Virus record (IMG/VR): IMGVR_UViG_3300029787_000143
Coordinates: 1-34,187 of that record
Reading direction: 5' to 3' (one strand)
DNA from: a virus
DNA length: 34,187 nt
The notes beneath the pieces are model-generated. The model had not been told where the DNA came from, made no database searches, and saw only the letters and a program-made list of their open reading frames with translations. The stretch's first letter is position 1. Every line of letters starts with the position of its first letter. This document shows, piece by piece, positions 29,949 through 33,955 of the stretch. Made by a program: the position numbers and the translations under genes.

Positions 29949-30350
29949 TTATCTTGTCGGTTCTAGTATAAAATTAAACGATTGAACAGGAGCATCTAAT
30001 CCAACAATTTCAAAAAGCACTTTTACTTCAAATGTGTTCTGATCGGGTAGTGCATCAATCTCTACACCAATGTTTCCTACTCTTGGTTCAAAATTCCTTA
30101 TAGTATTACGTACTTGATCTTCAATTATCATGACAGTTGAACGTTCAAAGTTCTCAAATAGAGAATCTCGAATGTCTGTACCTAAAACAGAATTAAAAAA
30201 CCTTTCTGTTGGTATTGTTTCGACCAAGTTTCTCACTGATCTGGTTATTGCTCGCTCATTTGAAAGCACGGGAAGGTCTTTTGTCACTGGATGTGGTGTA
30301 AAAGACAAACTGATATCCTTAAATGCTCTTGATTTGCGTTGAATCGCCAT
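29949..30350 (-). CDS. 25: Baseplate wedge protein gp25 (gp25/W-like family)
   Basis: Baseplate wedge component of the gp25-like family, which in T4 starts the sheath at the inner baseplate. The 133 residues equal the T4 length (132). Typical features are an N-terminal DISLSFTPHPVTKDLPVLSN segment, then ERAITRSVRNLVETIPTERF, then a helix rich in charged residues, and the C-terminal ANTF-type strand (QNTFEVKVLFEIVG). It is the first gene behind a late promoter and starts the gp25-gp6-gp7 unit. The leader from the promoter to the ATG is very short and without an evident Shine-Dalgarno sequence. Confidence 0.92.
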   Translation of the reverse strand: MAIQRKSRAFKDISLSFTPHPVTKDLPVLSNERAITRSVRNLVETIPTERFFNSVLGTDIRDSLFENFERSTVMIIEDQVRNTIRNFEPRVGNIGVEIDALPDQNTFEVKVLFEIVGLDAPVQSFNFILEPTR

Positions 30351-30367: not shown

Positions 30368-30375
30368 TATTTATA
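30368..30375 (-). promoter_or_regulatory. T4-type late promoter (TATAAATA)
   Basis: Perfect TATAAATA on the minus strand in the 27-nt gap between speD and gp25, 18 nt before the gp25 ATG. If transcription starts about 6 nt after the element, as in T4, the leader is only about 12 nt. It separates the metabolic genes on the right from the late virion genes on the left. Confidence 0.8.
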
Positions 30376-30728: not shown

Positions 30729-31456
30729 CCTAATTCTGGTTCGATATTGATATCTACGTTACCTGTTATTGGTTCAAATGGTTTTCTTTCTTCTTTTTCT
30801 TCGATTTCGTTACGTTCTTTTGCTGTTTTCCAGAAATAATTCTCTTCTGAACCTAATCCATCACGGTCATGACCGTTTTCAACCTGATAATACACTGTTG
30901 AAACCTTAAAATCGGGAACTTTAGGTGTTTCTGGAGTAATACTGTTGTCATATATCCTCATTCGATTGTTTGGATAGAGGCAAAACTGTCCATTATCCAA
31001 TTCCAAAAGATTATGGGACTTATGTTCGGCAGGTTGCTCACTGGTTGAGTAGTCAATAGCGTCTACACTGTCGTGATAGTTGTCTAAAGTGCAAATATAG
31101 GTACCTGTCTGGTTGCCAAAGTCTCTTGTATACACTTCATAGTGCATGCTTCCAATAAATTGCTTCTGAACAGCGACCACACCATAGTCCATACAGTTCC
31201 AAAACTGCAAATTATGAAGAGTCATATCAGGATCAGGTATCTCTGGCTCTGATAGGAATGCCGAAATGGGTAGTTTATCAAACATCGCAGCATATTCGGG
31301 TAAATACGTCTCAAAATAAAAGGCACGACCAGGAATGCTCTTGGCCGATACCCATACTCCTTTTACAAATTCACCATGTCCACTCTTATGGTCGGTTAAG
31401 TACTCTTTTCGTACCCATACTTCATAAGAAGGAAGATTCGTAATTAAGGTAGACAT
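30725..31456 (-). CDS. 243-aa hypothetical protein, speD neighbour
   Basis: I do not recognise a family. The protein is soluble, acidic and rich in Tyr and Trp. It has an N-terminal segment starting YEVWVRKEYLTDHKSGHGEF, central FWNCMDYGVVAVQKQFIGSM and YEVYTRDFGNQTGTY regions, and a charged tail (KTAKERNEIEEKEERKPFEP). LELDNGQFCLYPNNRMRIYD suggests a beta-rich middle. No signal peptide, membrane segment or clear catalytic motif was seen. The start codon overlaps the stop of the 48-aa basic protein and its stop overlaps the speD start, so the three form one unit behind a sigma70-like promoter. I believe similar proteins occur in other T4-like cyanophages, but this was not checked. Confidence 0.8.
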   Translation of the reverse strand: MSTLITNLPSYEVWVRKEYLTDHKSGHGEFVKGVWVSAKSIPGRAFYFETYLPEYAAMFDKLPISAFLSEPEIPDPDMTLHNLQFWNCMDYGVVAVQKQFIGSMHYEVYTRDFGNQTGTYICTLDNYHDSVDAIDYSTSEQPAEHKSHNLLELDNGQFCLYPNNRMRIYDNSITPETPKVPDFKVSTVYYQVENGHDRDGLGSEENYFWKTAKERNEIEEKEERKPFEPITGNVDINIEPELG

Positions 31457-31602
31457 TAACGACCTTGCCCCCGATATCTTTTACGAGCCGAGTTACGAGA
31501 GGTTGCTGCGTATTTCGAGTGTTTTCCCCGCCCTTGACGAGTTTTTTTCGGTCTTGTCTCAGTAACATAAGTGCTACCCATCATTCCTGATCTCTTTGCC
31601 AT
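31456..31602 (-). CDS. 48-aa highly basic protein
   Basis: Short ORF starting MAKRSGMMGSTYVTETRPKK and ending SRNSARKRYRGQGR. Fifteen of 48 residues are Lys or Arg and there is one acidic residue, so a nucleic-acid-binding role is likely; the family is not named to my knowledge. The stop codon TAA shares a base with the ATG of the 243-aa gene (TAATG), and a sigma70-like promoter lies just upstream, which supports a real gene. Very similar short basic proteins are, from memory, common in T4-like cyanophages. It could bind RNA, DNA or host ribosomes or polymerase; nothing here decides between these. Confidence 0.82.
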   Translation of the reverse strand: MAKRSGMMGSTYVTETRPKKTRQGRGKHSKYAATSRNSARKRYRGQGR

Positions 31603-31623: not shown

Positions 31624-31651
31624 ATTATAGCATCTTTACGACATTTATCAA
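31624..31651 (-). promoter_or_regulatory. Sigma70-like promoter for the 48-aa/243-aa/speD unit
   Basis: On the minus strand, -35 TTGATA (31651-31646; 5 of 6 consensus bases), 16-nt spacer, -10 TATAAT (31629-31624; 6 of 6), about 22 nt before the ATG of the 48-aa gene. The TGA inside the -35 box is the stop codon of the upstream oxygenase gene. TATAAACA at 31624-31617, one mismatch from the late element, overlaps it, so late use is also possible. Confidence 0.7.
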
Positions 31652-32214
31652 TACTCTGTCGTAAAGAAGAATACTTGTGTTAATCGTCCTGTCTCAATGT
31701 TGTTACCAAAATAAACTTGTGAGGTATGCCACTGGTCAGCACGAAACAATATTAATCGATTGTATCGATTATGTACCTCTGAAACAAGTTCCCATTTTGT
31801 CACATCTTCTGCATAGTTTTTACTCACTTCATCATCAGAATCTCCATAAACAGAATTATTTACTTTTGAACGGTAGAAACCTGTACCACCTTCGAGTGGA
31901 GCATTTGGAGTGAGATACAATACACCTGCCCAGTTATTTACATTATCAGTATGAACCCAACTTTTATGACGTGCAAATGATAATTGAAATGCTCCCGAAT
32001 AAGATTCTTTATTACTTTCTAACCAATCAATAACTTTACCTGCATGAGGTTTAATTAATCTTGCAATATTCGTTTTTGTATTCTCATTGAGATAGGAAAT
32101 CGTTCTAATGCCAGGATAATTACCTTCGACAGTAAACTTTTGAGATAAAGCAAAGTTTCTTACATCATCAACATTCTTATAGAAATCATCAACTACAATT
32201 AAATTTGTTCTCAT
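31648..32214 (-). CDS. 2OG-Fe(II) oxygenase-like protein (188 aa)
   Basis: Probable non-heme iron, 2-oxoglutarate-dependent oxygenase of the short type common in marine T4-like phages. The double-stranded beta-helix signature is visible: H88 and D90 in SWVHTDNVNNW as the first two iron ligands, a following strand AGVLYLTPNAPLEGGTGFY, the distal histidine H163 in FRADQWHTS, and R177 in TGRLTQVFFF as a likely 2-oxoglutarate-binding residue. The overall pattern resembles the DUF6445 family. The ATG overlaps the stop of the next oxygenase gene (ATGA), so the two are co-translated. The substrate cannot be read from the sequence; a protein, nucleic acid or sugar is possible. Confidence 0.82.
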   Translation of the reverse strand: MRTNLIVVDDFYKNVDDVRNFALSQKFTVEGNYPGIRTISYLNENTKTNIARLIKPHAGKVIDWLESNKESYSGAFQLSFARHKSWVHTDNVNNWAGVLYLTPNAPLEGGTGFYRSKVNNSVYGDSDDEVSKNYAEDVTKWELVSEVHNRYNRLILFRADQWHTSQVYFGNNIETGRLTQVFFFTTEY

Positions 32215-32783
32215 ACACCCATTTGAAACTTTTCACATTTATATTTCCACGATTCGTCAGTTTCAAATGTGATATAAGTTGCCACAATGACAACTCGACG
32301 ACCATAAGTAGGAAGTTCGTTTGCATGAACACCTTGAAAAGTAATACAACTATCTACAGTTGGTTCATATCGACTATCTTCGATAAAAGTTCCTCCGTCA
32401 GTTGGAGTCAGATAGAGTATGAAGTTATGATGTTCGTAATCATGGTCTTGATGAAAAGTACCAATTGAATTCTTTTCTGGAACGGGAAAGGTTGTATTAC
32501 ATGCGACTCTTAGGAAAAAAAATTTTTCGATTCCATTATGATTAAATATTTCTGATAGAACTTTTATAATCAACTCTGCCTTTACAGAATCCGAAGAATA
32601 AAAATGATTGTATTCTGGACGACCTAGAATGCAATGAGTATATGCCCAGTTAGTTACTGGTCGAGTTGATTTGGTTCTTTCTGAAACTACGGACTGATTA
32701 ATATACCAAGGAAATGATTCACCCAGTATAAAGTCCTTGAGATCATAATAGTTTACAGTTTTAGGATTTTTCAGTATTTTCAT
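32211..32783 (-). CDS. 2OG-Fe(II) oxygenase-like protein (190 aa)
   Basis: Second predicted 2-oxoglutarate/iron oxygenase, distinct from its neighbour. Likely iron ligands are H111 and D113 in GTFHQDHDYEHHNF and H153 in FQGVHANELP, with R162 or R163 (YGRRVVIVATY) for 2-oxoglutarate. The strand FILYLTPTDGGTFIED between them is typical of the fold. The N-terminal part (FPWYINQSVV, WAYTHCILGRPEYNHFYSSD) is probably a substrate-recognition region. It overlaps the C-terminus of the 65-aa gene by 23 nt and the next oxygenase gene by 4 nt. The two oxygenases share only the core motifs and therefore probably act on different substrates. Confidence 0.82.
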   Translation of the reverse strand: MKILKNPKTVNYYDLKDFILGESFPWYINQSVVSERTKSTRPVTNWAYTHCILGRPEYNHFYSSDSVKAELIIKVLSEIFNHNGIEKFFFLRVACNTTFPVPEKNSIGTFHQDHDYEHHNFILYLTPTDGGTFIEDSRYEPTVDSCITFQGVHANELPTYGRRVVIVATYITFETDESWKYKCEKFQMGV

Positions 32784-32958
32784 TTACAGGTTCATAACTA
32801 ATATCTTTTGCGGTTAAGTCCTTATTATAGTAAGTCTCAACAGCAAGGTCTTCCATGAGGTCAAACAATTCTCTTTCTGTGACATTCCAGAAGATAACTT
32901 TCCCCTTTCGGAGAATATTGTATCGGTCTACTTTCTTTTCTTCTTGCGGTTGTCCCAT
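32761..32958 (-). CDS. 65-aa hypothetical protein
   Basis: Unknown function. Small acidic soluble protein (YNILRKGKVIFWNVTERELF, then DLMEDLAVETYY) with an alpha/beta look and no membrane segment. I believe small proteins of this kind are conserved in T4-like cyanophages, but cannot name it. Its start lies inside the end of the 30-aa membrane peptide gene in another frame, and its own end overlaps the start of the 190-aa oxygenase gene, so all are likely on one transcript. No convincing ribosome binding site is seen. Confidence 0.75.
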   Translation of the reverse strand: MGQPQEEKKVDRYNILRKGKVIFWNVTERELFDLMEDLAVETYYNKDLTAKDISYEPVNENTEKS

Positions 32959-33020
32959 TGGTAAAAAACGTAAAGTCCGAGTAATGTCCAGAAGACGGTT
33001 GTAAATCCAATATGGTCCAT
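32928..33020 (-). CDS. 30-aa single-span membrane peptide
   Basis: Very short ORF just after the intrinsic terminator: a hydrophobic, aromatic segment (GFTTVFWTLLGLYVFY) followed by a strongly basic tail (NRKKKRK), the pattern of an N-out/C-in single-span membrane peptide. It ends in a different frame inside the beginning of the 65-aa gene, a 31-nt overlap. Function unknown. Such micro-proteins in phages may affect the host membrane or host enzymes, but that is a guess. Its small size and lack of a ribosome binding site keep confidence moderate. Confidence 0.55.
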   Translation of the reverse strand: MDHIGFTTVFWTLLGLYVFYQWDNRKKKRK

Positions 33021-33030
33021 AATTTTAAAT

Positions 33031-33067
33031 TAAAAACGAGTGAATCAGGGGATGTAGCTGATTCACT
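33031..33067 (-). terminator. Intrinsic (Rho-independent) terminator
   Basis: On the minus strand a 10-bp perfect stem AGTGAATCAG / CTGATTCACT encloses a 9-nt loop (CTACATCCC) and is followed by CGTTTTTAATTT, a U-rich tract. It follows directly after the stop codon of the 24-aa membrane peptide, so it ends the glycosyltransferase transcript or attenuates read-through into the 65-aa/oxygenase genes. Confidence 0.8.
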
Positions 33068-33140
33068 ATCTATGAGGATTATAGTACTGTATAAACAAGA
33101 ATAAAATAAAGATTATCAGTAAAATTGTAAGTCCTACCAT
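33066..33140 (-). CDS. 24-aa hydrophobic membrane peptide
   Basis: The ORF encodes MVGLTILLIIFILFLFIQYY followed by NPHR: a single hydrophobic helix with a short polar end, so almost certainly a membrane peptide. Its ATG shares a base with the stop codon of the glycosyltransferase gene (TAATG), the same coupling used by several accepted genes in this window, and the terminator hairpin begins at its stop codon. This arrangement argues for a real gene despite its size. Function unknown. Confidence 0.6.
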   Translation of the reverse strand: MVGLTILLIIFILFLFIQYYNPHR

Positions 33141-33904
33141 TAAATTATCCTTGTCTTTTCATGACCAACACGAACACGAGGATCGCACCAGATTTCAAAA
33201 CCCGCTTCTTTTGCATCTAAGCAGAATGAAACGTCTTCACCACACATATCCTGCACTTCACCTGATTCAAAGACTTGCATCTTTGGAGCAAACCAAGGAT
33301 AAGGTAATCCTTCATGCTCAAATACACCATTCTTAATTAATAACCAACCAAAACCAGTATAGTCAACTGTAAATGGTTTCTTTCTCTTACTAATACTATC
33401 TATTGTTTCATGATTCATCACACCGCCATTTGTGCGGAAATCATCTTCTTCTAACCAGTGAGCAACTGAAGTTGTCTTTCCATCTTCAGTACAATACCAT
33501 CCTGCTGCAATCTCTTTGTCCATGAGAAGTATCTGATAAAATTTCTCTGTGTTAAAGACAATATCAGAGTCAATCCAAAGTTGATAATCATACTTCAACT
33601 TTCCATCCCAAGGTTTCTGTTCTGGACCTCGAAGCACATTCGCACCTAAACATTTGCATCTTGCAAAGTTTACCATCGATGAGTAGTCTTGGCTTATCTG
33701 AATACTTGCACCACTTTGAACTAGGTCAAAACATAATGATACAAAACTTTTGAGAAACTGATATGATACTCCTCGACCAGGTAGACAGAATACAACTGTC
33801 TTTCCTTTTATCATTTCCTTTGCTTTAACATAATCAAACTCAGGTGGTTTCTCTGCTTTTTTCTTAACGGGGTTTTTTGCTTTTACCGTAAATCCTTTTG
33901 CCAT
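33140..33904 (-). CDS. Glycosyltransferase-like protein (GT-A fold)
   Basis: Likely nucleotide-sugar glycosyltransferase. After a basic, lysine-rich N-terminal tail (residues 1-20) there is a Rossmann-like core. Residues 36-45 TVVFCLPGRG form the first strand/loop, WIDSDIVF (110-117) contains the metal-binding D112-x-D114 motif, a conserved GFGWLLIKNGVFE segment lies near 184-196, and CGEDVSFCLDAKEAGFEIWC (221-240) followed by H248 is typical of GT-A enzymes (acidic ED base region, then a C-terminal histidine). It stands behind a strong sigma70-type promoter and overlaps the 24-aa gene. It could modify phage DNA, virion proteins or host surface glycans; the substrate is not visible. Confidence 0.8.
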   Translation of the reverse strand: MAKGFTVKAKNPVKKKAEKPPEFDYVKAKEMIKGKTVVFCLPGRGVSYQFLKSFVSLCFDLVQSGASIQISQDYSSMVNFARCKCLGANVLRGPEQKPWDGKLKYDYQLWIDSDIVFNTEKFYQILLMDKEIAAGWYCTEDGKTTSVAHWLEEDDFRTNGGVMNHETIDSISKRKKPFTVDYTGFGWLLIKNGVFEHEGLPYPWFAPKMQVFESGEVQDMCGEDVSFCLDAKEAGFEIWCDPRVRVGHEKTRII

Positions 33905-33926: not shown

Positions 33927-33955
33927 ATCATACACCATTATGTAGTCCTTGTCAA
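33927..33955 (-). promoter_or_regulatory. Sigma70-type promoter for the glycosyltransferase gene
   Basis: On the minus strand, -35 TTGACA (33955-33950; perfect consensus), 17-nt spacer, -10 TATGAT (33932-33927; 5 of 6), about 23 nt before the ATG at 33904. The TGA stop codon of the upstream 57-aa gene is part of the -35 box. Suggests early or middle expression by host polymerase. Confidence 0.78.

Follow-up and report, generated by a model that had tools for sequence, protein, structure and literature searches.

Two conserved micropeptide frames and a probable gene-deletion scar in a putative early operon of a marine cyanobacterial virus

Do the two very short frames that follow a glycosyltransferase-like gene in a marine cyanobacterial virus encode real peptides, and does the hairpin between them control the genes downstream? 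We addressed these questions in a stretch of 34,187 nt (hereafter the window), which belongs to a virus record of 37,209 bases. The reading that we favour, with a probability of about 0.6, is that the glycosyltransferase-like gene (GT), the two peptides (pep1 and pep2) and a 65-aa frame form an early operon, that the peptides are genuine membrane micropeptides acting as adaptors or regulators, with pep2 related to the family phrog_36745, and that loss of a DUF7936 gene left the hairpin as its scar. The genes and the hairpin follow each other on the minus strand in the order GT, pep1, hairpin, pep2 and 65-aa frame:

33927..33955, minus: sigma-70-type promoter, TTGACA-17-TATGAT, 11/12 matches, conserved 5' of GT in relatives
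33140..33904, minus: GT, glycosyltransferase-like, first gene of the block (phrog_1574, E 2e-119)
33066..33140, minus: pep1, hydrophobic peptide of 24 aa with C-terminal QYYNPHR, TAATG overlap with the GT stop
33039..33067, minus: hairpin, 10-bp stem and 9-nt loop, U-run at 33036-33032, absent in relatives
33021..33065, minus: spacer of 45 nt, probable remnant of a DUF7936 gene, with 16-nt and 8-nt blocks collinear with the gene of a relative (L001)
32928..33020, minus: pep2, 30 aa, predicted single helix, NRKKKRK tail, divergent relative of phrog_36745
32761..32958, minus: 65-aa frame, phrog_3252 (uncharacterised), its N-terminus overlapping the pep2 tail by 31 nt
30368..30374, minus: late-type ATAAATA motif just 5' of the gene 29949..30350, where the late module presumably begins

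A preliminary description of this DNA had coupled pep1 to the glycosyltransferase gene, ended it at the hairpin and started pep2 just after it, and the sequence bears this arrangement out. The pep1 ATG shares one base with the GT stop codon (TAATG), the pep1 TAG stop (33068-33066) abuts the hairpin stem, which runs from 33067, and the pep2 ATG lies 11 nt past the U-run. The single helix and basic tail attributed to pep2 also agree with our analysis: the peptide has one helix-forming stretch, predicted by AlphaFold2 as a helix over residues 2-29 (mean pLDDT 84.8), and ends in NRKKKRK. The overlap between pep2 and the 65-aa frame was absent from that description. A programmed frameshift from pep2 into the 65-aa frame was considered and rejected, as no slippery heptamer is kept (read by eye). 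In the window, pep2 has lost direct coupling to the upstream gene and shows, by eye, no Shine-Dalgarno-like stretch before its ATG, so that it may be poorly translated.

GT has a weak glycosyltransferase match (phrog_34859, E 3e-4) and no match in Pfam, phrog_1574 being an uncharacterised family, and it matches Prochlorococcus and Synechococcus phages. In P-SSM2, a GT relative is found upstream of gp25, gp6 and gp7, an arrangement with which the window agrees by frame order and lengths alone. Between the 65-aa frame and a 48-aa basic frame, the window carries a phrog_274 'endonuclease V' frame and a DUF6445 frame (32783..31648, minus); the pair also occurs in three relatives (L083, L084 and L085) and is missing from most. 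Upstream of the 48-aa basic frame (31456..31602, phrog_516) there is a promoter-like TTGATA-16-TATAAT (31624-31651, minus, 11/12) with TG before the second hexamer.

We searched IMG/VR for relatives of this block, obtaining 80 loci through GT and adding others by searches with both peptides. In most of the 80, GT is immediately followed by a frame of ~52 aa resembling the 65-aa frame and then by a basic frame of ~48 aa. pep1 is present in 6 of the 80 GT loci; at L079, the 111 nt available downstream are too few for a judgement. At one locus, a different hydrophobic peptide of 24 aa occupies the slot between GT and the small frame (L069:2449-2523). Once repeats were removed, pep1 and pep2 were found together after GT in 38 distinct contigs plus the window. 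These 39 loci leave out 12 repeats, the window itself recovered as L081, one locus with pep2 cut by the contig end (L104) and five loci of the L103 type, where the peptide is located elsewhere and no GT was found. They contain 34 distinct DNA sequences for pep1 and 32 for pep2, encoding 25 and 26 distinct peptides, respectively.

Throughout the 38 contigs both frames are unbroken and change length only in frame; the tails of pep2 vary by whole codons, as expected from the overlap of two frames. The C-terminal YY-[ND]-P of pep1 is constant or nearly so, as are GFT, the core W, GL and W-[DE]-[NS]-basic tail of pep2. Silent changes outnumber amino-acid changes in both peptides (dN/dS ~0.27 for each, NG86). 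When reading frames were shifted as a control, the true frame stood out clearly for pep1 (pN/pS 0.36-0.46, against 0.76-2.35 in the shifted frames) and only weakly for the part of pep2 that precedes its overlap. Over that part, dN/dS is 0.44, a sign of weaker selection, and pN/pS is 0.71 (shifted, 0.85 and 1.11) for the 90-nt group and 0.40 (shifted, 0.45 and 2.47) for the 93-nt group. Conservation of a helix face was not significant in permutations (p 0.11 and 0.05). The preliminary description had staked its case on frames and hydrophobicity being kept in relatives; neither broken frames nor lost hydrophobicity was found at this locus, and retention in 38 other contigs goes beyond chance. 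We conclude from this pattern of substitution that pep1 and pep2 are real, evolutionarily kept peptides with a putative membrane location.

The hairpin has a different history. Its stem pairs 33067-33058 with 33048-33039 and is followed by CGUUUUU, and its fold of -11.7 kcal/mol (z -6.4) was equalled by none of 200 shuffles. Such a strong fold and the U-run, which begins 2 nt past the stem, speak for the intrinsic terminator proposed earlier, which is plausible; its 9-nt loop and only four G-C pairs out of ten speak against it, and the terminator scan, limited to loops of 8 nt, did not list it. The control over downstream genes that had also been proposed finds no counterpart in relatives: the hairpin is absent from all 38 other contigs carrying both peptides, and we rejected it as a conserved element. 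In these contigs, the gap between pep1 and pep2 is 0-10 nt, except in L001, L002, L082 and L083, where ~300 nt hold a gene of 98-99 aa whose L001 copy belongs to DUF7936 (E 2.7e-15). The spacer of the window shares exact, collinear blocks of 16 nt and 8 nt with this L001 gene, a degree of sharing matched by none of 2000 shuffled spacers; in the 448 other 300-nt pieces of the window that were compared, sharing never exceeds 12 nt. The blocks measure 15 and 8 nt in L002 and 8 and 7 nt in the more diverged L083; in L082 the 16-nt block is intact and the other is changed. The two arms of the hairpin fall within these collinear blocks, and in the genes of L001 and L002 the arms are separated by ~110 nt. 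The most likely origin of the hairpin is thus loss of the gene between and around the arms, which does not account for a small number of bases in the loop or for the AT-rich DNA preceding pep2. The shared 16-mer occurs in 18 IMG/VR stretches, two of which are the DUF7936 genes of L001's contig and of L082. An exact search of IMG/VR for both arms 3-20 nt apart retrieved three contigs (L132-L134), none of them reported by tblastn with the proteins of the locus.

The preliminary description had also suggested that the peptides are early products, and this gains support from the DNA upstream of GT. We scored promoters in the 102 of 113 loci that had 110 nt upstream of GT. A TTGACA-17-TATRAT-like promoter scores 11-12 out of 12 in 27 of the 28 loci with the peptides and in 64 of the 74 without them, and nine further loci score 10; in single-base shuffles of the upstream DNA, scores of 11 and 10 were reached in ~0.1% and ~4%, respectively. 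The low scores of L081 and L121 are explained by the former being the other strand of the window and the latter having a partial GT. Early genes of cyanomyoviruses may be transcribed by the unmodified host polymerase from sigma-70-like motifs, according to a passage in PMC2984593. A passage in PMC3037559 names the T4-type late promoter TATAAAT, of which ATAAATA is a part. The window has 7 copies of ATAAATA, all on the minus strand, versus ~23 expected by chance on both strands; none lies in the GT-peptide block and one lies just before the gene at 30350. Early expression of the block is thus plausible, since GT has a sigma-70-type promoter upstream both in the window and in almost every relative.

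What kind of peptides are these? Neither pep1 nor pep2 belongs to an accepted Pfam or NCBIfam family. We found pep1 at the GT locus only; tblastn returned no copy in named phages, in a search where the low-complexity filter may mask pep1. Comparison of profiles identifies pep2 as a divergent relative of phrog_36745, a cyanophage peptide of 26-28 aa with a single helix, annotated as PSSP7_053 in P-SSP7 and as AU107_gp024 in P-TIM40. The pep2 of the window on its own gives a weak match to the phrog_36745 HMM (E 0.023, residues 1-18), and the pep2 profile aligns with that of the phrog_36745-type peptides over its full length (hhalign 97.9%, 28 columns, E 3.4e-13), with pep1, a control that is hydrophobic too, reaching 0.2%. 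A profile built without any pep2 sequence, which includes one bridging sequence of the L103 type with the tail of pep2, recovered pep2 from all seven records searched, with E values of 2e-8 to 4e-3; one record of 235,761 bases gave no further match. pep2 and phrog_36745 are alike in length, consist of a single helix and have a G close to the N-terminus, a core centred on W and a basic C-terminus; both come from a small cyanophage gene packed between others. They differ in that pep2 has a longer, ENRKKKRK-type tail, follows GT and pep1, and has GFT in place of GLE. Because FT replaces the LE at positions 6-7, invariant in the phrog_36745 alignment (A5), we class pep2 as a divergent relative and not as a strict member.

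The phrog_36745-type peptides are so small that gene finders easily miss them. A tblastn search with the S-SSM4 peptide found them in 42 records of T4-like and T7-like phages, and 575 of 590 pattern matches in IMG/VR were confirmed as belonging to this type. They mostly lie in annotation gaps: among 15 named phage genomes the peptide is annotated in two (P-SSP7 and P-TIM40) and unannotated in 13. Their selection signal is much cleaner than that of pep2, with pN/pS of 0.11 in frame versus 0.68 and 3.83 shifted among 53 distinct IMG/VR sequences, and 0.35 versus 0.66 and 1.37 in the 15 named phages. Among the best 80 IMG/VR loci, the peptide always starts within 8 nt of the end of the upstream frame and in 65 overlaps the next start by 4 nt; the pep2 of the window differs, with its 45-nt upstream spacer and 31-nt downstream overlap. 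The neighbours vary, with 14 upstream and 18 downstream families in these 80 loci; they include talC (P-SSP7 and P-GSP1), a protein noted as CP12 (P-TIM40) and a ferredoxin oxidoreductase (P-HM1). phrog_36745 is already known as an uncharacterised family, and a search of the open-access literature by name found no paper on phrog_36745, PSSP7_053 or AU107_gp024; further searches of that literature found none on these peptides. As far as these searches show, three things are new: the divergent branch formed by pep2, together with pep1 as its partner; the link to host peptides described below; and the probable scar origin of the hairpin, an example of how a deleted gene can leave a structure resembling a designed terminator.

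Together, these observations suggest how the block might work. GT, pep1, pep2 and the 65-aa frame would be read as a probable early operon from the sigma-70-type promoter, and pep1 and pep2 would be translated as single-pass membrane micropeptides. By the positive-inside rule, basic tails are cytoplasmic; pep2-type peptides would thus insert into the host membrane with the tail on that side, where they may act on a membrane protein of the host as its adaptors or regulators, with pep1 as a putative partner limited to the lineage of the window. Solved structures gave no match to the pep1 profile, their best hit to profile A6 was an olfactory receptor (E 0.59), and no small subunit of photosynthetic or respiratory complexes among solved chains matched in sequence. 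As no solved structure resembles either peptide, we infer function from other evidence: we favour a membrane adaptor or regulator because sequence, and not just hydrophobicity, is kept and because the neighbours vary.

This diversity of neighbours makes it improbable that the pair instead acts in lysis or superinfection exclusion, or like a toxin, by depolarising or blocking the membrane. Their size, hydrophobicity and basic tail are generally like those of such peptides, yet no lysis gene or antitoxin was recognised adjoining them in the window, and the promoter points to early expression, unlike that of lysis genes. The tight packing of the phrog_36745-type loci could also mean that the peptides are mainly translational linkers handing ribosomes from gene to gene. 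We consider this less probable still, since a linker has no need of such strong amino-acid conservation and the spacer breaks the link in the window. Both frames are short and overlapped by other short frames, as spurious open frames of AT-rich DNA would be, but they are retained with a pN/pS below 1 and their lengths change only in frame, which makes such an origin extremely improbable.

It is likewise doubtful that the hairpin functions as an attenuator or terminator, perhaps recruited from the remnant of the gene, and sets the levels of pep2 and the 65-aa frame. Besides its strong fold and nearby U-run, such a role would fit the lack of promoter-like sites scoring above 9/12 on the minus strand between the hairpin and 31651. 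Against it stand the restriction of the hairpin to the window among the contigs with both peptides, the inheritance of its arms from the deleted DUF7936 gene, and the loop and stem features noted above. At most, the hairpin may attenuate transcription in the lineage of the window. We therefore retain the combination of membrane micropeptides and a deletion scar.

Relatives of these peptides also exist in host chromosomes. A scan of genome contigs gave five loci: one in Prochlorococcus AG-418-I20 (E 1.3e-5 against phrog_36745), two that are weak and distant, and two in contigs labelled Nonlabens and Euryarchaeota. Related peptides of 33 aa are present in 114 of the 151 genomes of the genus of AG-418-I20 (E <= 0.01), with matches in 25 of 300 genomes of its family and 5 of 194 of its phylum. 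They belong to no accepted Pfam or NCBIfam family and show selection in frame (pN/pS 0.31 versus 1.39 and 1.12 shifted, 15 host sequences). The host peptide (L153, L236-L260) has the LEI-x-FWT-x-L core in common with phrog_36745 and a polar C-terminus longer than in the phage peptides. It adjoins an HN-like protein ('hemagglutinin' in phage annotation) and small Cys-motif proteins, neither of which was found near pep2. The HN-like protein occurs in 22 of 25 host loci with the peptide, which are not independent given their shared descent, and in 13 of the best 80 IMG/VR loci, 3 of 15 named phages with the peptide and none of the 80 GT loci, counts that lack a baseline rate for random cyanophage loci.

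The phrog_36745-type sequence is tightly kept in both T4-like and T7-like phages, and an abundant phototroph of the ocean carries related peptides in its chromosomes. We tentatively suggest that the phage copies share their host membrane target with the chromosomal peptide, and that the window holds a remodelled copy with a second peptide, forming an early takeover pair. Should the viral and chromosomal peptides have a common target, they would make a compact and testable entry point to the ways in which cyanophages adjust the membrane of their host.

We scanned 15 host loci for the Rfam Glutamine-II family, which we take to be the Downstream-peptide motif of Yfr6, and found no such element upstream of the peptide; the one match (L239:2729-2791), near the peptide operon, is on the opposite strand and not upstream. 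Yfr6, considered for its equal length, was rejected as an identity of the host peptide for want of this leader: it is a 33-aa peptide, also of Prochlorococcus, according to passages of PMC1242208 and PMC2518516, and a passage of PMC2864571 gives its 5' UTR as the Downstream-peptide motif. In L236-L260, the small Cys-motif proteins, the 33-aa peptide and the HN-like protein form a conserved host cluster, with 1 to 4 peptide matches per genome among the genomes listed. The peptides in the contigs labelled Nonlabens xiamenensis (L151, 188 kb) and Euryarchaeota MAG (L152) are of the cyanophage type, and these contigs are probably phage DNA in bacterial and archaeal assemblies.
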